This document shows positions 1,258 through 36,274 of a stretch of 42,985 bases of DNA, piece by piece (position 1 is the first letter of the stretch; each line of letters begins with the position of its first letter). The notes beneath the pieces are model-generated. The model was not told where the DNA came from, ran no database searches, and was given only the letters and a program-made list of their open reading frames with translations. The position numbers and the translations under genes were made by a program. Source of the stretch: Alphaproteobacteria bacterium (GTDB lineage Bacteria > Pseudomonadota > Alphaproteobacteria > SMXQ01); assembly GCA_009380075.1 (NCBI GenBank), contig WHSO01000024.1:1-42985 (forward strand), in the 5' to 3' direction.

Positions 1258-3939
1258 CTATTCACCGACGGACACGGCAAGCGGCTCGGCGGAAGTCAGG
1301 AGGTTCCGCAGCTCCGGCTTGCACGAGCCGCAGTTCGTGCCCGCGCCCAGGGTTGCGCCGATCTCCTGCACGCTGGCAAGGCCACCCTGGGCGATTGCCG
1401 CCTGGATCTGATTCCGTCCGACCGAGAAGCAGGCGCAGACGATCGGCCCGGTGTCGGCCGCCCCGGCGAGCAGGCGTCCCGACAGGAGCGCGGCGCGTTC
1501 CAGAGGCTCGATGGTGTCGGCGGAGAAAAGGCGGGCGATCCAGTCGAAGGTGCCCTCGACCGGCCCCGCCGCCACGAACAGGCAGGCGTGGAGTCGCCCC
1601 GCGCTGATGCGGGCGTAGCGGTATCGACCGGAAGCGGGATCGCTGTAGCTGATCCATTCGGCGGCGGCGCCCCCGGATTCGAGAAGGCCGCGCGCCCAGC
1701 CGTCCCAGTCACCGGGCGGCGCGTCGCCAGCGATGCGCGTGCGCCAGAAGCCACGCCCGCGCGCCCGTGCCCAGTAGCTTGCACCGCCGACCTCGAGCGG
1801 CCGTCGCGACAGGGCGACGGCCTGCCACGCCATCGCGCAGGGTGAGAGAGCGACGGGCGTGTGCTTGGCCTCGGGCTGGCCGGAGATGGGATCCACCACC
1901 GGGTTCACCACGGCGTCCACTAATCCCCGGCTCGCGAACCGGCCGTTCCAGTGGATCGGCGCAAAAACGCTGCCCTCGGCCTGCGCGTCGTCGCACCGCA
2001 CGCGCGCCACCATGTCGCCCCAGCGGCTGGCGATCCGTGCCAGTGATCCTTCCGCCAGCCCGAAACGTGCCGCATCGCCGGGATGGACGGCGACGAAGGG
2101 CTCATCGATGTGGGCGGACAATACGGGCGAGGCGCCGGTACGGGTCATCGTGTGCCAGTGATCGCGGACGCGCCCGGTGTTGAGGATCAGCGGAAATTCA
2201 TCGTTCACCGCATGTACCGGCGAGCGCAGCGAGACGGCGACGAAACGGGCACGGCCATCTGCGTGGTAGAAGCGGCCGTCACCGAGCATGCGTGCCGTAC
2301 CCTCAGGCCGGTCCGTCATCACCGGCCACTGCACCGGCGCAAGCGCATCGAAAGCCGCGTCATCGAGATCGGCAAGGCCGGAAATGTCGAAGTCGCGGAT
2401 ACCGTCGTTGCCGTAGCCCGACAGCGCGGCATGCTCGCGGAAGATATCGGCCGGCGTGCGGTAATCGAAACCCGAGCCGAAGCCCATGCGCTTCGCCACT
2501 TCGGTGACGATCCACCAGTCGGGCCGGGCTTCCCCCGGCGGCGGCAGAAACGCGCGCTGGCGCGAGATGCGGCGTTCGGAATTGGTGACGGTGCCGTCCT
2601 TTTCCCCCCAGGCCAATGCCGGGAGCACGACATGGGCAAACGCGGTCGTATCGGTACGTTCCACACAATCGGACACGACGACGAGATCGCATTTGGCCAG
2701 CGCCGCCGCGACGCTTCCCGCGTCGGGCAGGCTGACGGCCGGATTGGTCGACATGATCCAGACGGCCTTTACGTCTCCACGCCCGATCGCAGCGAACAGG
2801 TCGACCGCCTTGAGCCCCGGCTTGTCCGCGATCGCCAGCGCGTTCCAGAACGTGCGCACCAGGTCGCGGTGATGGGAATCTTCGAGGTTCATATGAGCGG
2901 CGAGCTGCGTGGCGAGGCCGCCCACCTCGCGCCCGCCCATAGCGTTGGGCTGGCCGGTCAGCGAGAACGGCCCCGCCCCCGGCGTGCCGATCCGCCCGGT
3001 CAGCAGGTGGCAATTGATGATAGCGTTGACCTTGTCGGTGCCGGCCGAGGACTGGTTGACGCCTTGGGAATACAGGGTGACGGTGCGCGCCGTGTGCGCA
3101 AACCAGTCGTAGAACGCCGCCACGTCCCCCGGCTCGAGGTCGCAGGTACGGGCGACCTCGTCGATGCCGACGGGTCCCAGCGCCGCCGCGGCGAGCGCCT
3201 CGTCCAGCCCCGCCGTGGCGCGGCCGGTGAAGGCGTAGTCGGCGGCCCCGACCTCGATCAGGTGCATCAGCAGTCCCGACCACAGAGCGACGTCGGTCCC
3301 GGGGCGAATGGCGAGATGCAGGTCGGCATCGTCGCAGGTCACGGTGCGGCGCGGATCGATGACAACCAGGCGGGACCGGCGTTTCTCCCGTGCCGCCATC
3401 ACGCGCTGGTACAGGACGGGGTGGCACCATGCCGCATTGGAGCCGACGAGGATCAGGAGATCGGCCTCTTCAAGGTCCTCGTAATTGCCGGGAACGGTAT
3501 CGGTGCCGAAGGCCCGCCGGTGGCCGGCGACCGACGACGACATGCAGAGCCGTGAATTGGTGTCGATGTTGGCGCTGCCGATGAAGCCCTTCATCAGCTT
3601 GTTGGCGACGTAGTAATCCTCCGTCAGAAGCTGGCCGGAGACATAGAACGCCACCGAATCGGGCCCGAAACGGTCGATGGTATCCCTGAAGCCCCGCGCC
3701 ACATGGTCGATGGCGGCGTCCCAGCCGACACGCCGGCCCGCGATCATGGGATGAAGCAGCCGGCCATCGAGCCCGATGGTTTCCTCCAGCGCCGCGCCCT
3801 TGGAACAGATGCGGCCGAGGTTCGCCGGATGATCCGGATCGGGCCGGATATCGACGCGGCCGTCGGGCTGGGGCGTGGCGATCAACCCGCAGCCGACCCC
3901 GCAATAGGGACAGGTGGTGCGGACGGCCTCCGTCGTCAT
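1258..3939 (-). CDS. nasA: Assimilatory nitrate reductase catalytic subunit (NasA) with C-terminal [2Fe-2S] BFD-like domain
   Basis: About 893 residues. NasA reduces nitrate to nitrite in the cytoplasm with a bis-MGD molybdenum cofactor. Near the N-terminus a [4Fe-4S] motif is visible as CPYCGVGCG followed about 27 residues later by ICSKG (C-x2-C-x3-C-x27-C). The molybdopterin oxidoreductase body follows with NIDTNSRLCMSSS, GSNAAWCHPV, GTDVALW and the C-terminal dinucleotide-binding part around NTGRVRDHWHTMTRTG. The last 60 residues hold a BFD-like [2Fe-2S] motif (CACFS ... TNCGSCKPEL), as in proteobacterial NasA proteins that take electrons from a separate reductase or ferredoxin. The start is ATG 3939, which overlaps the nirD stop by four bases (ATGA), so the two are translationally coupled. 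The frame stays open far upstream, but that extension overlaps nirD and nirB and lacks homology. It is the last gene of the nitrate operon. Confidence 0.96.
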   Translation of the reverse strand: MTTEAVRTTCPYCGVGCGLIATPQPDGRVDIRPDPDHPANLGRICSKGAALEETIGLDGRLLHPMIAGRRVGWDAAIDHVARGFRDTIDRFGPDSVAFYVSGQLLTEDYYVANKLMKGFIGSANIDTNSRLCMSSSVAGHRRAFGTDTVPGNYEDLEEADLLILVGSNAAWCHPVLYQRVMAAREKRRSRLVVIDPRRTVTCDDADLHLAIRPGTDVALWSGLLMHLIEVGAADYAFTGRATAGLDEALAAAALGPVGIDEVARTCDLEPGDVAAFYDWFAHTARTVTLYSQGVNQSSAGTDKVNAIINCHLLTGRIGTPGAGPFSLTGQPNAMGGREVGGLATQLAAHMNLEDSHHRDLVRTFWNALAIADKPGLKAVDLFAAIGRGDVKAVWIMSTNPAVSLPDAGSVAAALAKCDLVVVSDCVERTDTTAFAHVVLPALAWGEKDGTVTNSERRISRQRAFLPPPGEARPDWWIVTEVAKRMGFGSGFDYRTPADIFREHAALSGYGNDGIRDFDISGLADLDDAAFDALAPVQWPVMTDRPEGTARMLGDGRFYHADGRARFVAVSLRSPVHAVNDEFPLILNTGRVRDHWHTMTRTGASPVLSAHIDEPFVAVHPGDAARFGLAEGSLARIASRWGDMVARVRCDDAQAEGSVFAPIHWNGRFASRGLVDAVVNPVVDPISGQPEAKHTPVALSPCAMAWQAVALSRRPLEVGGASYWARARGRGFWRTRIAGDAPPGDWDGWARGLLESGGAAAEWISYSDPASGRYRYARISAGRLHACLFVAAGPVEGTFDWIARLFSADTIEPLERAALLSGRLLAGAADTGPIVCACFSVGRNQIQAAIAQGGLASVQEIGATLGAGTNCGSCKPELRNLLTSAEPLAVSVGE

Positions 3940-4274
3940 GCGGCGCCCGCGCGCAAGGTGACGCGGTCGAGGTCGAGCTCGATCTGCCCGTCGGTGATCC
4001 GCACCGGAAACGTCCTTACCGATCCCTGGTCCGGTGCCACCGCTTCGCCGGCGGCAAGTTCGATGCACCAGTCGTGCAGCGGACAGGTGACGCGGCCGCC
4101 ATGGACGATGCCCTGACTCAGCGGGCCGCCGCGATGGGGGCAACGGTCTTCGAGGGCGAAGATGCGGTCCCCGACGGCGCGGAATACGGCGATGTCGAGG
4201 GTCGGCGTGCGCACCACCCGGGCGCCCAGCGGCGGGATGTCCTCGACGCGGCCGACGACCGTCCATTTGCTCAT
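3936..4274 (-). CDS. nirD: Nitrite reductase small subunit NirD, with complete Rieske ligands
   Basis: 112 residues, the usual NirD length. NirD is the Rieske-fold partner of NirB in the NADH-dependent assimilatory nitrite reductase. Both Rieske ligand boxes are present: CPHRGG and, about 20 residues later, CPLHDW. This NirD should therefore bind a [2Fe-2S] cluster, unlike the Escherichia coli form, which keeps the fold but lacks the cysteines. The ATG at 4274 overlaps the nirB stop as ATGA, and the nirD stop overlaps the nasA start in the same way. The three enzyme genes therefore form a tightly coupled nirB-nirD-nasA unit. Longer in-frame starts would run back into nirB and are rejected. 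Confidence 0.96.
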   Translation of the reverse strand: MSKWTVVGRVEDIPPLGARVVRTPTLDIAVFRAVGDRIFALEDRCPHRGGPLSQGIVHGGRVTCPLHDWCIELAAGEAVAPDQGSVRTFPVRITDGQIELDLDRVTLRAGAA

Positions 4275-6712
4275 ACGCCGACCACCTTGAGCGGCGCGTA
4301 TTCGCTCCGCACCGGGATTTCGGCCGCCCGCTCGCCCCACGGGTCGGTCTGGCTGAACGATTGGGAGAACAGGAAGCGGGCGTGCAGCGCCTTGCGCTCC
4401 TTCGCATCCTCGACCACATGCGCCCTGACATAGGCGAGGCCGACGCGCTCCAGCCACGGCGCCGTGCGCTCGAGGTAGCGCGCCTCCTCACGGTAGAGCT
4501 GGAGGAAGGCGCCGCAGTACTCCATCACTTCCTCGGGCGTCGCCACCTTGCACAGGAGCTCGGTGGTGCGCACCTTGACGCCGCCGTTGCCGCCGACGTG
4601 CAGCTCCCACCCCGATTCGACCGCGACGACGCCGAAGTCCTTGATCGTCGCCTCGGCGCAATTGCGCGGGCAGCCCGACACCGCCATCTTGACCTTGTGC
4701 GGCGTCCATGACCCCCAGGTCATCTTCTCCAGCGCTATGCCCATGGCGGTCGAATCCTGGGTTCCGAACCGGCACCATTCGGAGCCGACGCAGGTCTTTA
4801 CGGTGCGCAGCGCCTTGCCGTAGGCGTGGCCCGAGACCAGTCCGGCGGCGTTGAGGTCGCGCCATACCGCGGGGAGGTCCTCCTTGCGCACGCCGAGCAG
4901 ATCGATCCGCTGCCCGCCGGTGACCTTGACCGTGGGGATGCGAAACTTGTCCGCGACGTCGGCAATGGCGCGCAGTTCCTTCGGGTTGGTGATACCGCCC
5001 CACATGCGCGGTATGACGGAATAGGTTCCGTCCTTCTGGATATTGGCGTGGGCGCGTTCGTTGATGAAGCGCGACTGGCTGTCGTCAACGTATTCGCCCG
5101 GCCAGGCACAAAGCAGGTAATAGTTCAGCGCCGGACGGCACTTCTGGCAGCCGTTGGGGGTGCGCCATTCCATGAAGGCCATCACGTCGGCAATGGTCTT
5201 GAGTTTCTGGGCGACAATGGTCTGGCGCGTCTCAGCGTGGGTGTGGTCGGTGCAGGGGCAAAGAGGCTTTTCGCTCGGCGTCTTGGTGTATTCGCCGCCG
5301 AGCGTCGAGGCGATGATCTGCTCCACCAGGCCGGTGCACGAGCCGCAGGACGACGATGCCTTGGTGTGGGCGCGCACCTCGTCAAGCGTGAACAGCTTGT
5401 TGGTGGTGATCGCCTTGACGATGGTGCCCTTGGCGACGCCGTTGCAGCCGCAGATTTCAGCATCGTCGGCGAGCGCCGAGGCCGAAGCGCCGCCGTGGCC
5501 GGGATCGCCCAGATAGCTCTGGCCGAAGACCAGAGTCTCGCGCAGGGCGGCGACATCGGTGCCGTCGCGCATCAGGCGGAAATACCACGAGCCGTCCACC
5601 GTATCGCCGTAGAGCACGGCGCCGGTCAGCCGATTGTCATGGAGAACGAGCTTTTTGTACACGCCGCGGGTTTCATCGCGAAAGACGATGTCCTCGGCCC
5701 CGTCGCCGCCCTGGAAGGCGCCGGCCGAGAACAGGTCGATTCCGGTGACCTTGAGCTTGGTCGAGATGAGCGAGCCGCGGTAGATGGCATAACCCAGAAG
5801 CGCCAGATGGTTGGCGCAGACCTTGGCCTGATCGAACAGCGGCGCCACCAAGCCGTAGACCTGGCCCCGGTGCTGCACGCATTCGCCGACGGCGTAGATC
5901 CGGGGATCGAAGGTCTGCAGCGTGTCGCCGACGACGATGCCGCGTTCGCAATGAAGCCCGCCGCTCCGGGCCAGCGCGATATTGGGACGGATGCCCACCG
6001 CCATGACCACGAGGTCGGCCTCGATCTCCCGCCCGTCCTTGAGGCGGACGCCGCGCACCCGATCGTCGCCCAGGATCGCCTCGGTCTGCGCCGGCAGCGC
6101 GAAACGCAGGCCGCGGGCCTCCAGCGATTGCTGCAGCATCCGGCCGGCATGGGGATCGAGCTGACGTTCCATCAGCGTATCGACGAGGTGCACGACGGTC
6201 ACCGCCATGCCCCGCTTCAACAGGCCGTTGGCGGCTTCGAGGCCCAGGAGCCCGCCGCCGATCACCACCGCTTTGGTGAAGTCCTCGCAGGCGCGGACCA
6301 TCGCGTCGACGTCGGCGAGATCGCGGAAGGTGACGACACCGGGCAGGTCCTTGCCGGGCAGCGGCAGCAGGACGGGGTCGGACCCCGTCGCGATCAGCAG
6401 CCGGTCGTAGGGCGTCGCGGCGCCTTTGTCGTCGATCACCGTATGGGCGCGCCGGTCGATGCCCACGACCTTGCGCCCGGCGATCAGCTCGATGCCGTGG
6501 TCGGTGTACCAGGCGAGGTCGTTGAGCATGATCTCGTCCAGCGTCTTTTCGCCGGCAAGCACGGGGGACAGGAGGATTCGGTTGTAGTTACCGTACGGTT
6601 CGGCGCCGAAGACAGTGATGTCGTAGAGGTCCGGCGCGACCTGCAGCAGCTCCTCGACCGTTCGCATGCCGGCCATGCCGTTGCCGATGACGACCAGGCG
6701 TTCCTTCTTCAT
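4271..6712 (-). CDS. nirB: NADH-dependent nitrite reductase large subunit NirB
   Basis: 813 residues, typical for NirB, which reduces nitrite to ammonium with six electrons from NADH. In order there are: an FAD domain (VVIGNGMAGMRT near residue 7); an NAD-binding glycine loop (VIGGGLLGLEAANGL); a BFD-like [2Fe-2S] domain (CGCNGVAKG ... SSCGSCTG, about residues 420-465); a second cysteine pair (CPCTDHTH ... NGCQKCRPALNYYL); and the sulphite/nitrite reductase domain with the sirohaem-[4Fe-4S] ligands CVGSEWC and CPRNC. The start is supported by AAGGAG seven bases upstream, which overlaps the TAA of the preceding ATPase gene. All cofactor ligands look intact. It shares an operon with nirD and nasA and with the nitrate importer genes upstream. 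Confidence 0.97.
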   Translation of the reverse strand: MKKERLVVIGNGMAGMRTVEELLQVAPDLYDITVFGAEPYGNYNRILLSPVLAGEKTLDEIMLNDLAWYTDHGIELIAGRKVVGIDRRAHTVIDDKGAATPYDRLLIATGSDPVLLPLPGKDLPGVVTFRDLADVDAMVRACEDFTKAVVIGGGLLGLEAANGLLKRGMAVTVVHLVDTLMERQLDPHAGRMLQQSLEARGLRFALPAQTEAILGDDRVRGVRLKDGREIEADLVVMAVGIRPNIALARSGGLHCERGIVVGDTLQTFDPRIYAVGECVQHRGQVYGLVAPLFDQAKVCANHLALLGYAIYRGSLISTKLKVTGIDLFSAGAFQGGDGAEDIVFRDETRGVYKKLVLHDNRLTGAVLYGDTVDGSWYFRLMRDGTDVAALRETLVFGQSYLGDPGHGGASASALADDAEICGCNGVAKGTIVKAITTNKLFTLDEVRAHTKASSSCGSCTGLVEQIIASTLGGEYTKTPSEKPLCPCTDHTHAETRQTIVAQKLKTIADVMAFMEWRTPNGCQKCRPALNYYLLCAWPGEYVDDSQSRFINERAHANIQKDGTYSVIPRMWGGITNPKELRAIADVADKFRIPTVKVTGGQRIDLLGVRKEDLPAVWRDLNAAGLVSGHAYGKALRTVKTCVGSEWCRFGTQDSTAMGIALEKMTWGSWTPHKVKMAVSGCPRNCAEATIKDFGVVAVESGWELHVGGNGGVKVRTTELLCKVATPEEVMEYCGAFLQLYREEARYLERTAPWLERVGLAYVRAHVVEDAKERKALHARFLFSQSFSQTDPWGERAAEIPVRSEYAPLKVVGV

Positions 6713-6723
6713 CGATGGACTCC

Positions 6724-8439
6724 TTACGCAGCTTTGCCCGTGACAGCGGGCGACGCGCCCTTGGGGTGGGCACCCCCTTCGTAATCCTTGAGGAAACCGA
6801 GAAGCTCCTCCCGGTAGGCGTAATAGCGGGGGCTTTCCAGCAAGGCCTTGCGCGAGCGCGGTCGCGGCAGGTCGACGTCCATGATGTTGCCGATCGCGGC
6901 GTTGGGCCCGTTGGTCATCATCACGACGCGGTCGGCGAGCAGGATCGCCTCGTCTACGTCGTGGGTGACGCAGAGCGCCGTCACCCGGGTTCGCGTCCAG
7001 ACCTCCAGCAGCACCTCCTGCAGATCCCAGCGGGTCAGCGAATCGAGCATCCCGAAGGGTTCATCCAGCAGCAGCAGCTTGGGCGACAGGGCGAAAGCGC
7101 GGGCAATGCCGACGCGCTGCTTCATGCCGTTAGACAGGTCTGCCGCCTTGCGGTCGAGTGCATCGCCAAGGCCGACGCGGGTCAGGTAATAGCGCACGAT
7201 ATCGGCGCGCTCTTTTGCGCGCGCATGGGGATAGACCTGATCGACGCCGAGGGCCACGTTTTCCCGCGCCGTCAGCCAGGGAAACAGGCTCGGCGCCTGG
7301 AACACGACACCGCGGTCGGGCCCGGCGGCGGAAACCTCCTTGCTGTCGAGGATAACGCCGCCCGAGGTCACGTCGTTCAGGCCGGCCACCATGGACAGCA
7401 CCGTGGACTTCCCGCACCCGGAATGCCCGATCAGGGTGACGAATTCGCCTTTCCGGATCTGCAGGTCGATGCCATCCACGACCGTGAGCGGGCCCTTCGG
7501 GGTCGGGTACACCTTGGTCAGGCGGGTGAATTCGAGGTACCGATCCGTCGCGCCCGAGCGCGCCTCCGCCGCCTCCGAAGCGGCGGCCGGCAATTCGGCC
7601 GGCGGCGTTTCGGTATTCGGTCGCACATCGGGCAGCACCAGGTCGTCGCCGGTGTCGAGGCCGCCTTCGCGGCCGACCTCGATCAGGTAGCCGGTGATGC
7701 GCGCGCGCAGGTCCTGGAACGTGCGGTCATGATTCACCGCCTTGCGGTCGCGGGGGCGCGGCATATCGACCCGGAATTCGGGGCCAAGGCACGCACCCGG
7801 GCCCGGATTCAACGGGATCACCCGGTCGGCCAGAAGGATGGCCTCGTCCACGTCGTTGGTGATCATCACAACGGTGCGTTTCTCGCGCTCCCAGATGGCC
7901 TCGATCTCGTCCTGCAACCGGGCGCGCGTCAGCGCGTCGAGGGCCGACAGGGGCTCGTCCAGCAACAGAACCTTCGGACAGGTCGCGAGCGCGCGCGCCA
8001 CCGCGACTCGCTGGCGCATGCCGCCCGACAGTTCCGCCAGCCGCCGGTCGCTTGCGTGGGAAAGACCGACCATGTCGATGTACTTGCGGGCATGCGCCGC
8101 GCGTTCCGTCCGGCTCATGTCCGTGAGCACAGCGTCGACCGCCAGACGCACGTTGCCCTCCACCGTCAGCCAGGGCATCAGCGAATAGCTCTGGAAGACG
8201 ACGCCGCGTTCGGGTGACGGCGCTGTGATCACCCTGCCGCCGAGCCGTACGTCGCCCGCATCGGATGTCACCAGACCGGCGATGGTCGAGATCAGCGTCG
8301 TCTTGCCCGAACCCGAGAAACCGACGATGGCGACGAATTCACCTTCCTCGATGGCGAGGTTGATGTCACGCAGGACCGAGTGGGCGGCCTTGCCCTCGCC
8401 GTAGGATTTGGAGATGTCGCGCAGTTCGAGAAAAGCCAT
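6724..8439 (-). CDS. Nitrate ABC transporter, two ATPase domains fused in one chain (NrtC/NrtD type)
   Basis: 571 residues with two complete ABC ATPase domains. The first has Walker [10 protein letters not shown], signature [14 protein letters not shown] and Walker [13 protein letters not shown]. The second, starting near residue 300, has [23 protein letters not shown] and [12 protein letters not shown]. Each is followed by a 'T-[NH]-D-V-D-E-A' switch region. An acidic, Ala/Pro-rich linker of about 50 residues joins them. Cyanobacterial importers instead use separate NrtC (ATPase plus a solute-binding-like domain) and NrtD, so here one gene supplies both ATP sites. The start ATG follows AGGAGG that overlaps the nrtB stop (TAGGAGGACGCGATG). 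Substrate assignment to nitrate or nitrite rests on the neighbours nrtA, nrtB, nirB and nasA. Confidence 0.93.
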
Positions 8440-8448
8440 CGCGTCCTC

Positions 8449-9543
8449 CTAGCGGCTCGCGCCGTAGCTGAAGGCCGCCTGCAGCGCCAGCATGACGCGA
8501 TCCAGCAGGAAGCCGACGATGCCGATGGTGAACACCGCGACCATGATCTTCGCCAGAGAGGATGAGGACCCGTTCTGGAATTCGTCCCAGACGAATTTGC
8601 CGAGGCCGGGGTTCTGCGCCAGCATCTCGGCCGCGATCAGCACCATCCAGCCGACCCCCAGCGACAGGCGCAGGCCGGTGAAGATCAGCGGCAGCGCCGA
8701 CGGAAGCACCAGCTTGACGATCCTGGTCCACCAGCCGAGCCGCAATACGCGGCCGACGTTGGTCAGGTCGCGGTCGATCGACGACACACCGAGAGTGGTA
8801 TTGATCAGGGTCGGCCACAGGGAGCAAAGTGTCACCGTTATGGCGGAGGTGAGGAACGATTTCTCGAATATCGGGTCCCGGCTGACGTAGACCGCGCTGA
8901 CGATCATGGTGACGATGGGCAGCCAGGCGAGCGGCGAGACCGGCTTGAAAATCTGGATCAACGGATTGAGCGCCGCGCCCGCCGTCTTCGACAGGCCGCA
9001 CAACACGCCAAGCGGGACAGCTACCAACGTCGCCAGCACGAAGCCCATGAACACGGTCTTGAGGCTGGTGAAGATCTGGTCGATGTAGGTCGGCTTGCCG
9101 GTGTAGTCGCGCCACTTGACGGTGGCCTTGGGGTCCGCCTCCAGGCGCGCGGCGTTGCGCTTTTCCTGGCGGTCGAAGAACGCGGCCCCCTTCTCCCGCT
9201 CGGCGACATGGTCGCGCCATAGCACGCCCGCCTGTTCCCACACCTGGACCGGGCCCGGCACGGCGCCGAGGCTGGTCTTGACCTGGGGCGCGGCTTCCGC
9301 CCAGGCGACGACGAAGATGAGAACCGCCAGCAAGGGCACCCCGGCGACGCGCCAGAGCACGCGCAACTGCTGGCGGGGGTCTTCACCCATCGCCATCTTC
9401 AGGAAGGGCACCAGCCAGCCGAAGCCCAGCACGTAGAGATAGCCGGCGGCCTTGTTGATACGCAGGTGCATCCGTGCGGCACGTTCGGCGCGACGGGCCT
9501 TCAGGTCCTCGAGTCGTTCAACGGCTTCACTACCGGCACTCAT
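8449..9543 (-). CDS. nrtB: Nitrate ABC transporter permease NrtB
   Basis: 364 residues of the BPD inner-membrane permease family, forming the transmembrane path for nitrate. A cytoplasmic N-terminal stretch is followed by a hydrophobic segment near residues 70-90, then a charged periplasmic or linker insert (roughly residues 105-165, with RQEKRNAARLEADPK). The permease core of about five helices follows. The EAA-type coupling loop is recognisable as TNVGRVLRLGWWTRIVKLVLP. The insert makes it longer than the cyanobacterial protein of about 275 residues. It sits between nrtA, from which it is separated by 79 bases holding a hairpin terminator, and the fused ATPase, whose ribosome site overlaps this gene's stop. 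Confidence 0.93.
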   Translation of the reverse strand: MSAGSEAVERLEDLKARRAERAARMHLRINKAAGYLYVLGFGWLVPFLKMAMGEDPRQQLRVLWRVAGVPLLAVLIFVVAWAEAAPQVKTSLGAVPGPVQVWEQAGVLWRDHVAEREKGAAFFDRQEKRNAARLEADPKATVKWRDYTGKPTYIDQIFTSLKTVFMGFVLATLVAVPLGVLCGLSKTAGAALNPLIQIFKPVSPLAWLPIVTMIVSAVYVSRDPIFEKSFLTSAITVTLCSLWPTLINTTLGVSSIDRDLTNVGRVLRLGWWTRIVKLVLPSALPLIFTGLRLSLGVGWMVLIAAEMLAQNPGLGKFVWDEFQNGSSSSLAKIMVAVFTIGIVGFLLDRVMLALQAAFSYGASR

Positions 9544-9622: not shown

Positions 9623-11026
9623 TCAGCCGCCGATCACGTCGGCGCCGGTGACCTTCTGGCCGTCCTTCAGGCCAATGGGGAACTGCTGCAGATAGCCGTT
9701 GGGCTTGCGGCCATCGAAGGTGATGTTGTCGATGAATTCCTTCTGGGGCGCGCGGTAGCCGTCGGTTCCGAACGGGAAGTCGGACTTTTTCGCCTTGCCC
9801 TCGGCGATCAGCAGTTCCGCCGCCTTCAGGTAAAGATCGGGCCGATAAACGTCCTTGGCGACCTTGTCGTACCAGGAGTCGGGTTTGGATTCGGGAATCT
9901 GCCCCCAGCGGCGCATCTGGGTGAGGTACCAGACGGCGTCCGAGTAATACGGATAGGTCGCGAAGTAGCGGAAAAAGACGTTGAAGTCGGGGACCGCGCG
10001 CTTGTCGCCTTTTTCGTATTCGAAGGTGCCGGTCATGGAATTGGCGATGACCTTCGCGTCGGCACCGACATATTCGGCCCGCGCCAGGATCTTGACCGCC
10101 TCGGGACGGTTGGCGTTGTTGTTTTCATCCAGCCAGATGGCGGCACGGATCAGCGCCTTGAGCACAGCGAGGTGCGTGTTCGGATACTTCTCCGCCCATG
10201 CCTTGTTGACCCCGAAGACCTTTTCCGGATTGTTCTTCCAGATTTCGAAGTCGGTGATGACCGGCACGCCGATGCCCTTGAACACGGCCTGCTGGTTCCA
10301 CGGTTCGCCGACGCAGTAGCCGTAGATCGTCCCCGCCTCGAGCGTTGCCGGCATTTGCGGCGGCGGCGTCACCGACAGGAAGGCATCCGCCTTGATCTGG
10401 CCGGTGATATTGGCCGGCGAGTAGAAGCCGGGATGGATGCCGCCCGCGGCCAGCCAGTAACGAAGCTCGTAATTGTGGGTGGAGACGGGGAACACCATGC
10501 CCATGTTGAAGGGCTTGCCCACCGCCTTGTATTTCTCGACCACCGGCTTGAGATAATCCGCCTTGATCGGGTGCACGGGCTTGCCGTCGGCCCCCATCGG
10601 GATGTGTTTCTTCATTTCCTTCCAGACCTCGTTGGAAACGGTGATGCCGTTGCCGTTGAGGTCCATCGAGAAGGCAGTGACGATCGGCGCCTTGGTGCCG
10701 AAGCCGATGGTCGCGCCGAGCGGCTGGCCCGCCAGCATGTGCGCGCCGTCGAGCTGGCCGTCGATGACGCGGTCGAGCAGCACCTTCCAGTTGGCCTGGG
10801 GCTCAAGGGTGACGTAGAGGCCCTCGTCTTCGAAGTAGCGTTTCTCGTACGCGATGGCGAGCGGCGCCATGTCGGTCAGCTTGATGAAGCCGAACTTGAG
10901 TTCGTCCTTTTCCAGCTTGAGCGGCTCGGCTCCTGCACTTCCCGCCGCCGCCACGCCGAACGCCACCGCGCCCGAGGCGAGCGAGCGCCGGGCTCGCCGC
11001 CAGCCGTTCTTCCATCCGATGATCAT
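9623..11026 (-). CDS. nrtA: Nitrate-binding periplasmic receptor NrtA
   Basis: 467 residues. NrtA captures nitrate in the periplasm and delivers it to NrtB. The N-terminus holds twin arginines and a hydrophobic stretch ([10 protein letters not shown] ... [10 protein letters not shown]), so export is likely, possibly by the Tat route, although the motif is not canonical. The mature part shows family features: [53 protein letters not shown] and [12 protein letters not shown]. The ATG at 11026 is nine bases from AGGAG. A TTG at 11032 is in frame but too close to that site. It is the first structural gene after a leader containing a sigma-54 promoter, an ANTAR-type antiterminator and a terminator. 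It is a longer paralogue of NasS, encoded upstream. Confidence 0.95.
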
Positions 11027-11092
11027 CGCCAACTGCTCCTTTGCGTGATCCGCGGCGATCTATCCGACACCGGCCGGAAAATCGCGCAGCCT

Positions 11093-11145
11093 AAAAACAA
11101 AAAACGCCGCATTCGGCCCCTCTCCCGAAGGGGCGCAAAGCGACG
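11093..11145 (-). terminator. Leader terminator (attenuator) ahead of nrtA
   Basis: Minus-strand RNA can form an outer stem CGTCGC (11145-11140) with GCGGCG (11110-11105, one G-U pair). It can also form an inner stem GCCCCT with AGGGGC, and is followed at once by TTTTTTGTTTTT (11104-11093). It ends 66 bases before the nrtA start. The 5' arm of the outer stem is also part of the second ANTAR-type hairpin, so the two structures exclude each other. This is the expected design for NasT-controlled antitermination. Confidence 0.88.
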
Positions 11146-11170
11146 CTGCCTCATCGTCCTGCTCTGGACG
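11137..11170 (-). promoter_or_regulatory. ANTAR-target antiterminator: two hairpins with six-base loops
   Basis: Minus strand, 5' to 3'. Hairpin 1 is CGTCC (11170-11166), loop AGAGCA, GGACG (11159-11155). After two bases comes hairpin 2: GAGGC (11152-11148), loop AGCGTC, GCTTT (11141-11137, with two G-U pairs). Both loops have six bases with A at position 1 and G at position 4, the hallmark of RNAs bound by ANTAR proteins such as NasR, EutV and NasT. Hairpin 2 uses bases 11145-11140, which are also the 5' arm of the terminator. NasT binding should therefore stabilise hairpin 2 and let transcription continue into nrtA. That nasT lies upstream makes NasT the obvious ligand (inference). Confidence 0.85.
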
Positions 11171-11209
11171 GATATGTCACCGCCGAACACGGCGGCCTGC
11201 CACAGTATG

Positions 11210-11225
11210 TGCAAACGCCGTGCCA
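11210..11225 (-). promoter_or_regulatory. Sigma-54 promoter for the nrtA-nasA operon
   Basis: Minus strand TGGCACGGCGTTTGCA fits the sigma-54 (RpoN) consensus TGGCACG-N4-TTGCW exactly, with GG and GC dinucleotides separated by ten bases. It predicts a transcript start near 11199, about 30 bases before the first ANTAR hairpin and 170 before the nrtA start. A sigma-54 promoter needs an enhancer-binding activator, most likely NtrC for nitrogen genes. I found no convincing NtrC site by eye. Confidence 0.88.
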
Positions 11226-11337
11226 CTTTGCGGTAACGGGGAAAATGGCGGAGACGCAGGGCACAGAGTCCGGATGGACCGCAGACGCCAGGGACGGCAT
11301 GCCGAAATTATGGGCGACCCGCCTTCTTGATCGGCAA

Positions 11338-12594
11338 TCAGGCACCCTGGCTGGATGGCGTTGAGCCGCCATGACCGATATCGAAACCGGCCAGGTAGCC
11401 GGCGATATCCTTGGGATCGAAGACCCGGCCGTCGAACAGGAGGGGCACGGGCTCCCGGCTCGCCCCCTGCGCCGCCGCGGGCAAGGCCGCCGGTGGGGCC
11501 GGCGCGGCCAGATCGGGCCGGAACACCTGCGCCACCAGCGCTTCGGCTTGCGGAGAGGGCTCGATCTGCCCCCAGCGCACCATCTGGCTGTAGAGCCATA
11601 GCGCCTGCGCGCGGCTCGGCAGACTGTTGCCCGCCCGGCGAAACAGGATGTAATCGGGCAGGGCCACGTGCGTGCCGTCGGCATCGAGGGACAGATCGCC
11701 CGCGAGGATGCGCGCGATCATCGTCGCCGGCGCGCCGACGTAGCGATCCTCGGCGAGGATGCGCGCCAGGGATTCGTGGTTCGACGCGTCCGACGCCCAG
11801 ACCGCGGCACGATCGAGCGCGCGTATCAGGGCGGCGAGGATATCGGCATGGGCGTCGGCCCATTCGGCGCGCAGGCCAAGCACCTTTTCCGGGCTCAGCC
11901 GCCAGATCTGCGACTTGGTGGCGACGATGCGCCCGAGGCCGGCTTCCACCGCCAGGCTGTTCCACGGCTCACCCACGCAAAATCCCTGGATATGCCCGGC
12001 TCGCAGGCTGTCGACGATCAGTGGCGGCGGAATCACGACGAGGCGGATGTCGCGGTCCGGATCGATCCCTCCCGCCGCCAGCCAGTAGCGCAGTTCGTAG
12101 TTGTGGCAGGAAAAGGGAAACACCATGCCGAAGGTCAGGGGCTCGTCGCCGGCCGCACGCATGTCGGCGATGACCCGCGCGAGCGCGGCGGCCATGGCCG
12201 CGGGATCGCCGTCGCGCACGGGGCCCATCGCCGCCATGCGCGCGAACAGATTGCGCGACACGGTGATGGCGTTACCGTTGAAGCCGAGCGCGAGGGGCGC
12301 GATGACCGGCACGCGCACCTGCGCGATGCCGAGCGTCGCGGCGATCGGCATGGCCGCCAGCATATGGGCGCAATCCAGGTGACCGAGATTGACCTTGTCC
12401 CGGATATTGGCCCAGGACACGTCGCGTTCGAGCACGAGGTCCAGCCCTTCCGCCCGGGCGAAGCCCTGCTTGCGCGCGATGACCGGCAGCGCGCAGTCCA
12501 CCAGTGGGATGAAACCGCAACGCACCGTCAGGCGAGAACGGCGGAAGAACGGGCTTCGGCGCGATTTCGGGCGCGGCATGGAAGACGTGATCAT
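11338..12594 (-). CDS. nasS: NasS, cytoplasmic nitrate sensor
   Basis: 418 residues, an NrtA-like ligand-binding fold without a signal peptide: the N-terminus is polar and basic (PRPKSRRSPFFRRSR). That is the property that separates NasS sensors from exported NrtA receptors. Shared features are [47 protein letters not shown] and GFCVGEPWNSLAV. In characterised NasS-NasT systems NasS holds NasT inactive, and binding of nitrate or nitrite releases NasT to bind leader RNA. It lies 32 bases after nasT on the same strand, so the two are co-transcribed. The start ATG 12594 follows GAGG at a usable distance. The gene ends just upstream of the leader region that NasT should act on. Confidence 0.93.
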   Translation of the reverse strand: MITSSMPRPKSRRSPFFRRSRLTVRCGFIPLVDCALPVIARKQGFARAEGLDLVLERDVSWANIRDKVNLGHLDCAHMLAAMPIAATLGIAQVRVPVIAPLALGFNGNAITVSRNLFARMAAMGPVRDGDPAAMAAALARVIADMRAAGDEPLTFGMVFPFSCHNYELRYWLAAGGIDPDRDIRLVVIPPPLIVDSLRAGHIQGFCVGEPWNSLAVEAGLGRIVATKSQIWRLSPEKVLGLRAEWADAHADILAALIRALDRAAVWASDASNHESLARILAEDRYVGAPATMIARILAGDLSLDADGTHVALPDYILFRRAGNSLPSRAQALWLYSQMVRWGQIEPSPQAEALVAQVFRPDLAAPAPPAALPAAAQGASREPVPLLFDGRVFDPKDIAGYLAGFDIGHGGSTPSSQGA

Positions 12595-12626
12595 GGGGCC
12601 TCGTTTCTCCTTGCTGGTTCCTCGCG

Positions 12627-13220
12627 TCAGCCCAGAAGATCGGCGGCGGTGACGATGGATCGCGCCACGTCGATCAGCTTGCGGTTCTGGTTCATGGCGG
12701 CCTGGCGCAGCATGGCGTAGGCCTCGTCCTCGCCGACCTGGCGGCGCTTCATCAGGATCCCCTTGGCCCGGTCGATGACCTTGCGCTCCGCCAGCGCGCT
12801 CTTGGCCTCGTCCAGTTCACGCTGGAGGGTGGCGAAGGCATTGAAGCGGCTGATGGTCATTTCGAGTATGGGGCGGATGCGTTTCCTGGACAGGCCGTCG
12901 ACGATATAGGCGCTGACCCCCGCGTCGACGGAAGCCTGGATCATCGAGGAATCGGACCGGTCCACGAACATGGCGATGGGCCGCCGGACGGCGCGCGACA
13001 CTTGGAACATCTGCTCCAGCACGTCGCGGCTCGGGTTCTCCAGGTCGATCAGGATGACGTCGGGATCGGCGGCGTAGAGCTGCCGCGCCAGCGCCTGCAT
13101 GTCGGAGATCAGGCTGACGCGGGTGAATCCGGCGTCCCGCAGGCCTTCCTCCAGGATCGCCGCGCGCAGCGGACTGGCATCGACGACGACGATATTGAGA
13201 TCCTTGTCCTTCGGGTCCAC
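12627..13220 (-). CDS. nasT: NasT, ANTAR-domain antitermination regulator
   Basis: About 197 residues from GTG 13220 (VDPKDKDLN). The N-terminal half is a receiver-like domain (NIVVVDASPLRAAILEEGL, DVILIDLENPS). The C-terminal half, after a short coiled helix (LQRELDEAKSALAERK), is an ANTAR RNA-binding domain (VIDRAKGILMKRR ... EDEAYAMLRQAAMNQNRKLIDVA). It should bind the paired hairpins at 11137-11170 and prevent termination ahead of nrtA when NasS senses nitrate. An upstream ATG in the same frame would add about 43 low-similarity residues. The GTG fits the family start, although its ribosome site (AGGT) is weak. It is the first gene of the nasT-nasS pair. Confidence 0.92.
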   Translation of the reverse strand: MDPKDKDLNIVVVDASPLRAAILEEGLRDAGFTRVSLISDMQALARQLYAADPDVILIDLENPSRDVLEQMFQVSRAVRRPIAMFVDRSDSSMIQASVDAGVSAYIVDGLSRKRIRPILEMTISRFNAFATLQRELDEAKSALAERKVIDRAKGILMKRRQVGEDEAYAMLRQAAMNQNRKLIDVARSIVTAADLLG

Positions 13221-13657
13221 GGCTGACCTGTACGCACACCTATCGGCGGACCGGCTATCGGCGCGGGCCCGCATGTCCTGTGGGTATGCAAGTTCTATGA
13301 CAACACGTGGAAACCCCGGCCTGCGGGGAGTCCCCCAAAGTCCGCGCATGACAAGTGAACAATATTTAGTCGGTCTTGCTTATACGCCGTTTTTTTATGC
13401 AGTTTTAGGTGCCCACCCCTGCCTCGCGAACAGGAGACGCCGGGCTTGGTTAACAAGATATCTCTTGCAAATCCTGTAAATAACTTATAGTTAAGAATGA
13501 GTTTCAGTTGCATGTGCTTGGCCCATCGCAGCCTCGCCATTTTGCCGCGCCCCGTGCGCGGCACATTTTTGATCTGAGCCAGCCACTCGGCGCCGCGTCG
13601 TCGGCCGCTGTCGGCAGTCAGCCAGGATCCCCTCAAAAAGACGTGGGAGATTTGGCC
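13221..13657. other. Divergent intergenic region between nasT and the TonB-dependent receptor
   Basis: About 437 bases, less GC-rich than the flanks, with no convincing gene. It must hold the promoters for nasT (minus) and for the receptor (plus). The only element I can point to is a Fur-box-like sequence at 13496-13513, described separately. A GG/GC pair on the minus strand resembles sigma-54 but has the wrong spacing. Confidence 0.6.
13496..13513 (+). promoter_or_regulatory. Candidate Fur-type iron box upstream of the TonB-dependent receptor
   Basis: The sequence AATGAGTTTCAGTTGCAT matches a common form of the bacterial Fur box (AATGAGAATCATTTGCAT) at 15 of 18 positions by eye. It lies about 145 bases before the receptor start. 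Iron-repressed control would fit the gene's likely role. Alphaproteobacteria often use RirA, Irr or Mur instead, so this remains a candidate. Confidence 0.35.
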
Positions 13658-15457
13658 ATGACGCCGAAATCGTTAACCTGCCTGTCGTTGCTGACCCTGT
13701 CCTTCACCTCCCTCGCCACCGTTATCGCCCGGGCCGAAGTGTTCAAGCTCGAGCCGATCGAGGTGAATGCGCCGCCGGTCCATCCGTCCCAGCAGCTTCG
13801 CCACCAGGTCGAGGGCGCGTTCGACCAGACCCGATCGACGTCCACGGTCGACGGCTCGGTCATCCAGAACCTCAATCCCGTCAACAACCTCGACAGCGTC
13901 CGCTACAACGCCACCGGCGTCATCAATGCACCCTTCAATGGCGACCGCTTCGGCGGCGGCACCAGCATTCGCACCTTCGGCGACTGGGGGGCCGCCCGCT
14001 CGATCGACGGCCTTCCCGCCTTCAAGACGGCTGGCGAGGAAGGCGGCGGCTACTCCAACTCGGTGGTTCCTGCCATCGCCATCGAGCAGATCAACGTGGT
14101 CAAGGGCGGACGGGCCGTCCAGTACGGCGACGGGACCGACGGCGGGGTCATGGAAACGCGGATCAAGTCGGGACGGCATTACAAGGATCATCTTGCCGGC
14201 AGCCTCGACCTCAGCACCGCGGGCGACGGGGAGGGGGTCCTGCAGGCGGAGATCGCGAACGGCGAGAAGCAATGGGACTACTACGCCGCAGGGAGCTGGA
14301 TGGAGGGACGCTACGACCGCGAGCCGCCGAACCTCGACCGGCAGCGGATCCTCAACGGCGTGACCAAGGTCGGATTCAATCCGAGCGCCGCGACCCGGGT
14401 GGAGCTGCTCGGCCTCATCGAACGCAGCCGTCCCGACATCATCCGCAACAACAATATCGAGGAAATCACGGTCGACGCGGTCATCGGCGGCCTGACCATG
14501 GATTCGAAGATCGACCCCCGCACCAGCGTCCGCATCGGGCATCTCTATGCCGACAGCCGCTCCATCTGGGATGCGCGGAACCGCGACCGCAGCCTGGAGA
14601 ACTTCATCACCTTCGCCGACGGCTTCTACACGGCGCCCCTTTCGTCGTCCATCACCTACAACGGCAGCGCCGGACTGCAGCACAAGCGGACCAACCTCCT
14701 GCGCGACAACCAGTGGGACAACACCTTCGACGACATCTCAGCGAAGTGGATCAACGCCGTCACCTTCGACAAGAACCTGACCCTGACCCTCGGCTTGCGC
14801 CAGACCTGGTTCAACAACGACATCACCCTCAACGGCCAGGCGCAGCCCGACAACCTGCAAAGCGACAGCGTCACCTCCTATGAGGCCGGCGCCGCCTACA
14901 ACGTGACCGAGAGCACGCGCCTGCGCACCTCCGTCGCCACCGGCTACAACCGGTTTTTCGAGAAATACGGCAATTTCGGCACCGACGCGCTTAATACCCT
15001 CGGCGCCGGGGACGAAGTGGTCGAGTCTCTCTCCCTCGAGGTCGGTGGGCGGTATTCCTGGCTCGACGGGTATTTCGACGCCGCCGTCTACAATATCGAG
15101 CAGGAGAACGTGCCGCGGCGCAACGGCGGCGCCATCGAAAGCGTCACCGTCGAGCAGACCGGCCTCGAACTCGAACTGGCGTCGCGGCTCACGGACCGCC
15201 TCACCATGTCGGCAGGGTACATGCATATCTTCGACGTGGAAGCGACGCGCGCCGACGGCACCGTCCAGAAGCGTGACGGATTCGTCCGTGCGGACATCGG
15301 TGCGGCCTGGCGGGTCACACAGAAGGCCGTGTTGCGGGCACGGATCGAGAACCTTCTCGACGAAAAGGACTTCGGCGCCACGCTCGAAGGTATCCCGGTC
15401 AACGACAGCGGCAAGATCGGCCGCGTGTTCTGGGTCGGCCTCGACTATACCTTCTGA
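13658..15457 (+). CDS. TonB-dependent outer membrane receptor, probably for an iron chelate
   Basis: 599 residues from ATG 13658 (GGGAGA ribosome site). A signal peptide (MTPKSLTCLSLLTLSF ... IARA) is followed by a plug domain. There VIQNLNPVNNLDSVRYNATGV and IDGLPAF resemble the plug, and IEQINVVKGGRAVQYGDGTDGG is the classic 'VLRGP.S..YG....GG' plug signature. The rest is a beta-barrel of alternating segments ending in WVGLDYTF, with the terminal aromatic residue typical of barrel insertion. At about 600 residues it is a small receptor. No obvious extra N-terminal signalling domain is present. The PepSY membrane protein 11 bases downstream suggests ferric siderophore or haem-type uptake with reductive release. 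The actual ligand cannot be read from sequence. Confidence 0.88.
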   Translation: MTPKSLTCLSLLTLSFTSLATVIARAEVFKLEPIEVNAPPVHPSQQLRHQVEGAFDQTRSTSTVDGSVIQNLNPVNNLDSVRYNATGVINAPFNGDRFGGGTSIRTFGDWGAARSIDGLPAFKTAGEEGGGYSNSVVPAIAIEQINVVKGGRAVQYGDGTDGGVMETRIKSGRHYKDHLAGSLDLSTAGDGEGVLQAEIANGEKQWDYYAAGSWMEGRYDREPPNLDRQRILNGVTKVGFNPSAATRVELLGLIERSRPDIIRNNNIEEITVDAVIGGLTMDSKIDPRTSVRIGHLYADSRSIWDARNRDRSLENFITFADGFYTAPLSSSITYNGSAGLQHKRTNLLRDNQWDNTFDDISAKWINAVTFDKNLTLTLGLRQTWFNNDITLNGQAQPDNLQSDSVTSYEAGAAYNVTESTRLRTSVATGYNRFFEKYGNFGTDALNTLGAGDEVVESLSLEVGGRYSWLDGYFDAAVYNIEQENVPRRNGGAIESVTVEQTGLELELASRLTDRLTMSAGYMHIFDVEATRADGTVQKRDGFVRADIGAAWRVTQKAVLRARIENLLDEKDFGATLEGIPVNDSGKIGRVFWVGLDYTF

Positions 15458-33902: not shown

Positions 33903-35141
33903 TTATACGGCCGCGTTCCGGTCCGGGCTGGCGGGCTCGGCTGCGGCCCCGCGAATGTGAGATCCGACCCCGGCTGCAGCGCCGGACACGACGATACAGC
34001 GGTCCACCGGCAGCTCGACATAGACCTCGTCTCCCTGTGCGAACTTGAACCGCGAGTGCTGCCGGCTTACCAGGATTTCACCGCGGACCTCGATTTCGAG
34101 CTCGACGTTCTCACCGAGAAACGTGGGTTGGCTCACGCGCCCCGGATACACGTTGCCGCTTCCGGAGGCCGGCGCCTGGGTGGAAATCTGCACGTCCTCG
34201 GGCCGAATGACGACGGAATCGCCCTGGCCGACTTGCCGGTTGTTGTCCACGTTCACCAGCACGGGTCCTATGCCGGTCTCGACCGAAACCGTCCCGGCCC
34301 GTACCGGCGCCGGCGGCCGCACGATCGAAAGCAGGTTCGTTCGCCCGACGAAGGTGGCAACGAATGCGGTACTGGGACGCGAGTAGATCTCGCGCGGCGC
34401 GCCCTGTTGGACCAGGTTGCCTGAATCCATGATGGCGATGACGTCGGACATGCTGAATGCCTCCGCCTGATCGTGCGTCACATAGAGCGTCGTGACACCG
34501 GTCCGGAGCTGCATCGCCCGCAGTTCGCCCCGCATATGGTCGCGCAGGCCCGCATCGAGATTGGACAGCGGCTCATCGAGCAACAGCAGTTCGGGACGCG
34601 TGATCAGCGCGCGCGCGACCGCCAGCCGCTGTTGCTGGCCACCGGACAGTTTCGTGGCCATGCGATCACCGAGCTGGTCCAGGCGAACCACGTTGAGCAC
34701 TTCCTCGACCCGATTGGCGATCTCCTTGCGGGAGAACCGATGGTTGCGACGATTGGCATGGAGCGGGAAGGCCACGTTCTGGAACACCGTCATGTGCGGC
34801 CAGATCGCATAACTCTGGAACACCATGCCGAAGCCACGTTCCGACGCCGGCACGAACTCCCGCGTTTCGGAGTCGGCGAGCACGCGGCCGCTCACCGCGA
34901 TATAGCCCCGTTCATGCCTTTCCAGCCCCGCTATGCATCGGAGCGTGGTGCTCTTCCCGCAGCCCGAAGGGCCGAGCAACGTGAAGAACTGTCCCGGCTC
35001 GATCGCAAATGAGACGTCCTTGATCACCTGGACGACTTCTTGACTCGATGCGAACGACTTTACCAGGTTCCTGACGGTCAGCTGCCCCGGACGGATCGAC
35101 AACACCGATCCGTCCGGGTTCTTTCGCGGAAGAACGCTCAT
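33903..35141 (-). CDS. ABC importer ATP-binding protein (Fe3+ / putrescine / 2-AEP type, FbpC-PotA family)
   Basis: 412 residues. The ATPase domain shows Walker A LGPSGCGKSTTLRC, Q-loop GMVFQSYAIWPHMTV, signature LSGGQQQRLAVARA, Walker [18 protein letters not shown] and switch YVTHDQAEA. The C-terminal third is a TOBE domain (SVVIRPEDVQI ... GRVSQPTFLGENVELEIEV). The start ATG 35141 is one base after the receptor stop, so translation is coupled. An N-terminal extension of about 25 residues (SVLPRKNPDGSVLSIRPG) precedes the ATPase core. It powers the permease at 36275-38047. Confidence 0.93.
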   Translation of the reverse strand: MSVLPRKNPDGSVLSIRPGQLTVRNLVKSFASSQEVVQVIKDVSFAIEPGQFFTLLGPSGCGKSTTLRCIAGLERHERGYIAVSGRVLADSETREFVPASERGFGMVFQSYAIWPHMTVFQNVAFPLHANRRNHRFSRKEIANRVEEVLNVVRLDQLGDRMATKLSGGQQQRLAVARALITRPELLLLDEPLSNLDAGLRDHMRGELRAMQLRTGVTTLYVTHDQAEAFSMSDVIAIMDSGNLVQQGAPREIYSRPSTAFVATFVGRTNLLSIVRPPAPVRAGTVSVETGIGPVLVNVDNNRQVGQGDSVVIRPEDVQISTQAPASGSGNVYPGRVSQPTFLGENVELEIEVRGEILVSRQHSRFKFAQGDEVYVELPVDRCIVVSGAAAGVGSHIRGAAAEPASPDRNAAV

Positions 35142-35142
35142 G

Positions 35143-36231
35143 TCAACGCGGCTTTGCGACCGGGAAGCCCCACGCCTCGAAGATCCGCTTCTGCAACGGC
35201 TCAATTATGGCGACGTCTTCCCAACCGACGAAGGCGATCTTCTTGCCCTTCACCAATGTGTTGGTGAGGGAGCCCTCCCGGAAGATCGAGCCCTTGATGG
35301 GCCCTTCCTTGTTGAAGAGGTCCTGCACCTCGGCGGTCGCGAGGACCTCGATGAACAGCAGGGACGTCGCCGGTTTCTTCGACGTCTTGTTGATCCCGAG
35401 CATGTTGTTGAGCCGGACCGGCACGGGTTCCAGCAAGACCACCCGGAGATGCGGTGCATTGCGCTGCTGGATCCGGTACGCGGAATGATAGTGATTGAGC
35501 GAGCCGATCGCATATTCGCCCGCGGCCATGGCGGTGATCGACCGGGTCGCCCCCTTCGTCCACACCGGACGCTGTGCGCCAAGCTTCCTTGCATATTCGA
35601 GGACCTTGTCTTCACCCCACACGACAGCGAGCGCGGCTATGCCCGAGGCCTGCGAGACATCGGCCCACAGGAGCCCGCTGTTCTTCAGCTTGGGGTTCAG
35701 CAAATCCTCGTAGGATTTTGGGGTAAGGTCTGCCGGAAGCGTTTTGGAGTTATACGATATCCCTGCCAGCGCGCTGCCGACCGAAAGCACCTTCGGCTCC
35801 TTCGGATTGATCATCTTGACCGGGATGTCGATCACCCCTTTCTGGGCCATGGTAAGCAAGTCGATCTTGTAGATGTGCGGATAGTACGAGTTGAGGCCGA
35901 GTTCTTCTTCCATGTGAACGACGTCGTTCGGATTGGTTCCGGCCGCGATTTCAAGCAGTACGCGGGCGTCGGCATCGCCCACCTCCTGCCCGACCGCATC
36001 GACGAAGCTGTACTTCGCCTTGAACATTTTTATGACCTTGTCGATGGTCTTCTGGTCGAAGGCGAACGTCGCCATGAATTTGCCGGACTCCGCCCGAGCG
36101 GCCTTGACGATCTCGTCGTGGCTGGCATAGCTGAGATAACCGGCGGCGTTCTTTTCCGCACTGTAAACCGTTCCGGGCGCCGCCAACAAAATGCCGCAAG
36201 CGGCGATTGACAGGGTTTTCAAGACATTCAT
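35143..36231 (-). CDS. ABC importer periplasmic substrate-binding protein (Fe3+-type, AfuA/FutA-like)
   Basis: 362 residues with a signal peptide (MNVLKTLSIAACGILLAAPG ... YSAE). The fold and motifs fit the type 1/6 receptors of the iron, thiamine and phosphonate group: FKAKYSFVDAVGQEVGDADARVLLEIAAG near residue 70, NPNDVVHM, SYEDLLNPKLKNSGLLWADV and MAAGEYAIGSLNHYH. The tyrosine pair typical of true ferric-binding proteins is not evident, so an organic anion or chelate is possible. AGGGAGGT precedes the ATG. It is the middle gene of a permease-receptor-ATPase operon. Confidence 0.87.
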   Translation of the reverse strand: MNVLKTLSIAACGILLAAPGTVYSAEKNAAGYLSYASHDEIVKAARAESGKFMATFAFDQKTIDKVIKMFKAKYSFVDAVGQEVGDADARVLLEIAAGTNPNDVVHMEEELGLNSYYPHIYKIDLLTMAQKGVIDIPVKMINPKEPKVLSVGSALAGISYNSKTLPADLTPKSYEDLLNPKLKNSGLLWADVSQASGIAALAVVWGEDKVLEYARKLGAQRPVWTKGATRSITAMAAGEYAIGSLNHYHSAYRIQQRNAPHLRVVLLEPVPVRLNNMLGINKTSKKPATSLLFIEVLATAEVQDLFNKEGPIKGSIFREGSLTNTLVKGKKIAFVGWEDVAIIEPLQKRIFEAWGFPVAKPR

Positions 36232-36274
36232 CCCAACCTCCCTTGTGTAGTACTCGTTTTACCTGCCTGACGCG

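Follow-up and report, generated by a model that had tools for sequence, protein, structure and literature searches.

A set of genes for nitrate uptake and assimilation lies on the minus strand of the 42,985-nucleotide stretch of alphaproteobacterial DNA analyzed here (the window), and the question is how their transcription is controlled. The region ahead of the first of them, read from the sequence on the minus strand between 11316 and 11026, contains a leader. We estimate a probability of about 0.92 that this leader is the promoter and attenuator of an nrtA-nrtB-nrtCD-nirB-nitrate reductase operon, acting as a double switch of sigma-54 and NasT. The genes on either side of the leader are as follows.

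12627-13349, minus strand: nasT, receiver plus ANTAR antiterminator (PF03861, 78.5 bits; PF00072, 36.6 bits)
11338-12594, minus strand: nasS, NrtA-like (NMT1_2) nitrate sensor (PF13379, 244.6 bits), with no evident signal peptide by eye
9623-11026, minus strand: nrtA-like nitrate-binding protein, first gene after the leader (PF13379, 320.6 bits)
8449-9543, minus strand: nrtB-like nitrate ABC transporter permease (PF00528; TIGR01183, 162.6 bits, below the model cut-off)
6724-8439, minus strand: NrtCD-like double ATP-binding protein (TIGR01184, 602 bits)
4271-6712, minus strand: nirB, assimilatory nitrite reductase large subunit (TIGR02374, 941 bits)
1258-4491, minus strand: molybdopterin assimilatory nitrate reductase-like protein (PF00384, PF01568 and Fer2_BFD; NasC model below cut-off)

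The initial annotation had placed the NasT and NasS genes directly upstream of the leader, and receiver-ANTAR and NMT1_2 domains were indeed found there. A receiver-ANTAR protein is thus encoded beside an NrtA-like sensor and next to nas genes, which is the NasS-NasT arrangement (with the signal peptide judged by eye), and the genome encodes no ANTAR protein other than NasT. The nasT start codon is probably GTG at 13220 and not ATG at 13349, because most homologues align from about residue 46-52. The GTG start would leave about 290 bases to the divergent gene at 13508, which encodes a TonB-dependent receptor (13508-15457, plus strand). None of the ten other genomes of the taxonomic family had a NasT of comparable score; the nas cluster therefore appears patchy, through gain by transfer or loss elsewhere. 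Further transport genes of the window, at 33903-38047 on the minus strand, encode an ABC transporter of polyamine/2-aminoethylphosphonate/iron type; they comprise an ATPase and a double permease, which score under the cut-offs of the models that match best.

Within the leader, the following elements were identified, in 5' to 3' order.

11316-11300, minus strand: weak candidate NtrC enhancer, CGCCCATAATTTCGGCA, with two mismatches, located 90 bp 5' of the sigma-54 element
11225-11210, minus strand: sigma-54 promoter TGGCACGGCGTTTGCA (GG, 11224-11223; GC, 11212-11211); predicted transcription start near 11199
11196-11179, minus strand: 5' hairpin GCCGCCG-TGTT-CGGCGGT (fold -12.8 kcal/mol)
11170-11155, minus strand: P1, first ANTAR-target hairpin, CGTCC-AGAGCA-GGACG, with A1 and G4 in the loop AGAGCA (fold, alignment and covariance model)
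11153-11136, minus strand: P2, second ANTAR-target hairpin and antiterminator, TGAGGC-AGCGTC-GCTTTG, loop AGCGTC (fold, alignment and covariance model)
11146-11104, minus strand: intrinsic terminator stem (fold -26.8 kcal/mol)
11104-11093, minus strand: U-tract TTTTTTGTTTTT, followed after 66 bases by the nrtA start codon (11026)

Every element named in the initial annotation, namely a sigma-54 promoter, two hexaloop hairpins and a terminator with a U tail, is present in the sequence and in the right order. The 5' hairpin, absent from its list, sits between the predicted start site and P1; with a loop of four bases it is not an ANTAR-type hexaloop. By eye, some relatives seem to have a hairpin at this position too.

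We examined the promoter element and its genomic context. TGGCACGGCGTTTGCA has GG at -24 and GC at -12 at the fixed spacing. The leader promoter is the one place in the 3.54-Mb genome where its core, TGGCACN5TTGCW, is matched exactly. The reversed control gave four matches, so it is the location of the site that counts, and no enrichment is implied. When the window was scored with a rough weight matrix for sigma-54 sites, the leader site came first at 18.2, a score reached somewhere in one of 30 simulated 43-kb windows. The genome encodes RpoN (TIGR02395, 430 bits) and two clear sigma-54 activators, NtrC (TIGR01818, 698 bits) and NtrX (710 bits), which lie within a single ntrBC-ntrYX cluster; NtrB is also present, and a third sigma-54 activator match in Pfam is weak. 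Each of 19 leaders, the window's and 18 from relatives, has a sigma-54-like site 5' of P1, at 35-167 bases from the P1 loop. Sixteen of these sites beat all 200 shuffles, and the three from Methylocystis beat 98-99.5% of them. In two leaders (L155 and L156) the distance from the site to the P1 loop is 155-167 bases, roughly 100 more than in most others, and these leaders therefore contain extra sequence. A survey of sigma-54 regulons in Pseudomonadota predicts nitrate transporters, NirB and nitrate reductases among its targets (PMC12316311).

To describe the enhancer, we derived an NtrC-like consensus, YGCACAANNTTTNNGCR, from the nas promoters of relatives, leaving the window unused. With at most two mismatches, 11 of the 15 relatives examined carry it ahead of their sigma-54 site, in ten cases at -101 to -129 and in one at -161. 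The best candidate in the window has two mismatches and lies at -90, near the spacing of the relatives. At the same stringency the 3.54-Mb genome has 118 matches, a number equal to that of the control; from this rate, chance would yield about 0.008 matches over the 250 bases searched. Two of the nearest relatives by NasT and NrtA (L037 and L154) had no good NtrC-like site. A general NtrC palindrome (TGCACCA-type), also tried upstream of the promoter, scored below shuffles, and the consensus from relatives outdid it weakly. A second NtrC-like site, TGAACAATATTTAGTCG, was noted upstream of nasT (13356-13372, plus strand; two mismatches, weak), and Paracoccus also has an NtrC site upstream of nasT (PMC5424462). 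The sites upstream of the nas promoters support NtrC control of the window's promoter, short of demonstrating it.

These sites also bear on a rather unlikely alternative, which accepts antitermination by NasT and lets nitrogen limitation enter mainly through nasT, with the sigma-54 promoter answering NtrX or another signal and not NtrC. It would resemble Paracoccus, in which nasT is controlled from an NtrC site and the nasA leader has no identified one (PMC5424462), and it fits both the weakness of the window's NtrC-like site and the presence of an NtrX gene. The palindromes that most relatives carry 101-161 bp ahead of their sigma-54 site argue against it, ten of them falling within 101-129 bp compared with 90 bp for the window's candidate. 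We infer that nitrogen limitation is the input to the sigma-54 promoter.

The two small hairpins and the terminator were then considered together. P1 has five pairs and P2 five or six, several of them G-U. Both hairpins thus exceed the minimum of three pairs set for ANTAR targets (Ramesh 2012), and both carry the six-base loops of that definition with A at position 1 and G at position 4; P2 also overlaps the proximal terminator stem. The initial annotation was right that P2 and the terminator share bases and drew the overlap too narrowly, at 11145-11140; it extends over 11 bases, 11146-11136. Sequence overlap and folding agree that P2 and the terminator are mutually exclusive, as had been claimed. 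P2 is weak (-3.8 kcal/mol, compared with -6.4 kcal/mol for P1) and the terminator strong, so P2 should not win unaided, as expected for an antiterminator stabilized by a protein. Of 200 dinucleotide shuffles of the whole leader, 199 fold less well than the real sequence (z -3.2). A simple terminator scan did not detect the leader terminator, probably because of a bulge in its stem. Rfam gave no match in the leader, either at the gathering score or at E values up to 10. The only Rfam match in the window is a terC RNA (RF03067; 17414-17467, minus strand; 54.4 bits, where the gathering score is 39.9).

We next analyzed the conservation of the leader. NasT loci were collected from other alphaproteobacteria and scanned for two A1/G4 hexaloop hairpins in tandem with a T-run behind them. 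The scan recovered the same leader close to nas genes in records of Methylocystis, Methylopila, Xanthobacteraceae, Magnetovibrio and Sphingomonadales, as well as in several further genomes. The Bradyrhizobium loci, which made up the majority of contig matches, had no motif-scan match beside nasTS and were omitted from the alignment, as were two leaders with spacings of 19 and 20 bases (L164 and L119) and a near-repeat (L167, of L114). In the resulting alignment of 16 leaders, the CC/GG closing pairs of P1, the GC/GC closing pairs of P2, and A1 and G4 of both loops are invariant. Paired cells amounted to 98.4%, compared with 89.6% after shuffling, a percentage that is partly high by construction because the scan required stems; the spread over pair types is less so. 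The covariation score was 0.390 compared with 0.186 in shuffles (reached in 0 of 500), and sliding the pairing partners by one to three columns abolished the signal. Two pairs in each of the P1 and P2 stems changed on both sides, and P1 of the window adds a compensatory change of its own, U-A for C-G. When 17 leaders were folded, three to six of the six P2 loop bases lay inside the terminator stem in every one, together with the 3' arm of P2; mutual exclusivity is therefore a shared feature.

This conservation weighs against the improbable alternative that P1 alone is needed, with P2 unformed and NasT holding P1 and the linker. The weakness of P2 in the window's leader would suit this idea, as would the mutations in Paracoccus, where the effect of altering hairpin HI was severe and that of altering HII was not (PMC5424462). 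HII may, however, be the terminator and not P2, and in our alignment the P2 stem covaries, with changes on both sides of two pairs, and A1 and G4 are retained in the P2 loop of all 16 leaders.

The spacing of the hairpins is short. The linker between P1 and P2 is 1-4 bases, depending on the P2 pairs counted, and the two loops are 12 bases apart; most relatives have 10-16 bases between loops. Short spacing is thus usual in this group, and the spacing rule seems to differ from that of eut leaders, in which working linkers are 5-12 bases and linkers of 3 and 14 bases are harmful in eutP (PMC3369931). The harm that a three-base linker does to induction in Enterococcus faecalis eutP (PMC3369931) makes the close placing of P1 and P2 a point against the proposed mechanism, and the weakness and G-U content of P2 are another.

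The initial annotation had named a covariance-model search for ANTAR targets as a check. With a P1-P2 model built from relatives, excluding the window and L037, the best match in the 43-kb window was indeed P1-P2 (18.0 bits, E 0.019; next match 13.1 bits), but the search was not decisive across the whole genome, where nine other matches exceeded 18.0 bits. In the fifteen genome-wide matches that we retrieved, no T-tract follows the motif, and the sequences resemble coding DNA. Taken by itself, P1-P2 is thus weak evidence, and it is the combination of elements that carries weight. Because the P1-P2 model is too short to decide genome-wide, we used a composite pattern, CCANNGNNGG-N4-16-GCANNGNNGC-N20-50-TTTTTT. 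It has one match in the genome, at the leader, and its reversed control has none. The sigma-54 core and the composite pattern fall within 130 bases of each other, beside the genome's only ANTAR gene. Across 289 genomes of the class, the pattern occurred in 25, nine of which have a NasT at E ≤ 1e-40; the match was the nas leader in eight of these nine. Matches in genomes lacking such a NasT look like scattered background.

One further alternative, that the terminator is the constitutive end of the nasTS transcript, with nrtA served by its own downstream promoter and the small hairpins incidental, would suit a terminator that comes after nasS and a U-tract 66 bases ahead of the nrtA start codon, yet it is very improbable given the sigma-54 promoter upstream of the terminator, the lack of any sigma-70-like promoter found in 10950-13600, and the retention in relatives, with compensatory changes, of the A1/G4 loops, both stems and the terminator overlap.

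The double switch of sigma-54 and NasT would operate as an AND gate, a reading that is well supported by comparison: nitrogen shortage would start the transcript, and nitrate would let it pass the terminator. When nitrogen is short, phosphorylated NtrC (or NtrX) would activate sigma-54 RNA polymerase, with transcription predicted to start near 11199. If nitrate is absent, NasS would hold NasT, the weak P2 would lose to the terminator, and transcription would end at the U-tract near 11093. In the presence of nitrate or nitrite, NasS would release NasT. By analogy with known families, a NasT dimer may then bind the loops of P1 and P2 and stabilize P2, which would withdraw 11146-11136 from the terminator and allow the polymerase to read into nrtA. 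These parts fit the general scheme for ANTAR proteins, in which a dimer attaches to the two loops, keeps P2 in place and thereby weakens the terminator (PMC3369931, PMC3369936).

Several known systems resemble this proposal. At nasFEDCBA of Klebsiella oxytoca, two inputs also act in series, with Ntr control of the nasF promoter (NtrA, NtrB and NtrC) and a nitrate-responsive ANTAR protein, NasR, that opens a terminator through A1/G4 hairpins (PMC5424462, PMC3369936). There, however, NasR (NIT plus ANTAR) both senses nitrate and binds RNA, whereas in the window these tasks would be split between NasS as sensor and NasT as RNA binder, and the genes are ordered differently. Paracoccus denitrificans shares the NasS-NasT pair, nasTS adjoining the operon and the leader hairpins (PMC3795266, PMC5424462). 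Nitrate drives the release of its NasT from NasS, NasT binds the nasA leader with nitrate present (PMC3795266), and the bacterium no longer grows on nitrate when a leader hairpin is mutated (PMC5424462). Paracoccus differs in having its NtrC site at nasT and not at nasA, whereas the window has a consensus sigma-54 promoter directly before the leader. The sigma-54 survey describes similar NasS-NasT control of the nas leader for Azotobacter vinelandii nasAB (PMC12316311). The EutV/EutW system of Enterococcus faecalis has the same dual A1/G4 hexaloop hairpins, with P2 exclusive with the terminator (PMC3369931), but serves another signal and other genes, and its loop spacing in eutP (18 compared with 12 bases) and its linkers (5-12 compared with 1-4) are longer.

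We regard it as possible, though somewhat doubtful, that alphaproteobacterial NasT leaders form a compact ANTAR-target subclass with its own spacing rule and without a matching Rfam family. Its traits would be an invariant CC-ANNGNN-GG, a short spacer, GC-ANNGNN-GC, a P2 loop inside the terminator and, upstream, a sigma-54 promoter that is often accompanied by an NtrC site.

Given the precedents of Klebsiella nasF, Paracoccus NasT and the sigma-54 survey, the leader is ordinary in kind; it is a new example of a known design and leaves the understanding of the mechanism unchanged. It does offer a clean, comparison-backed case of two nitrogen signals placed in series on one operon within about 130 bases. 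The aligned leaders also yield a NasT-target consensus that can be used to find more NasT targets in alphaproteobacteria.
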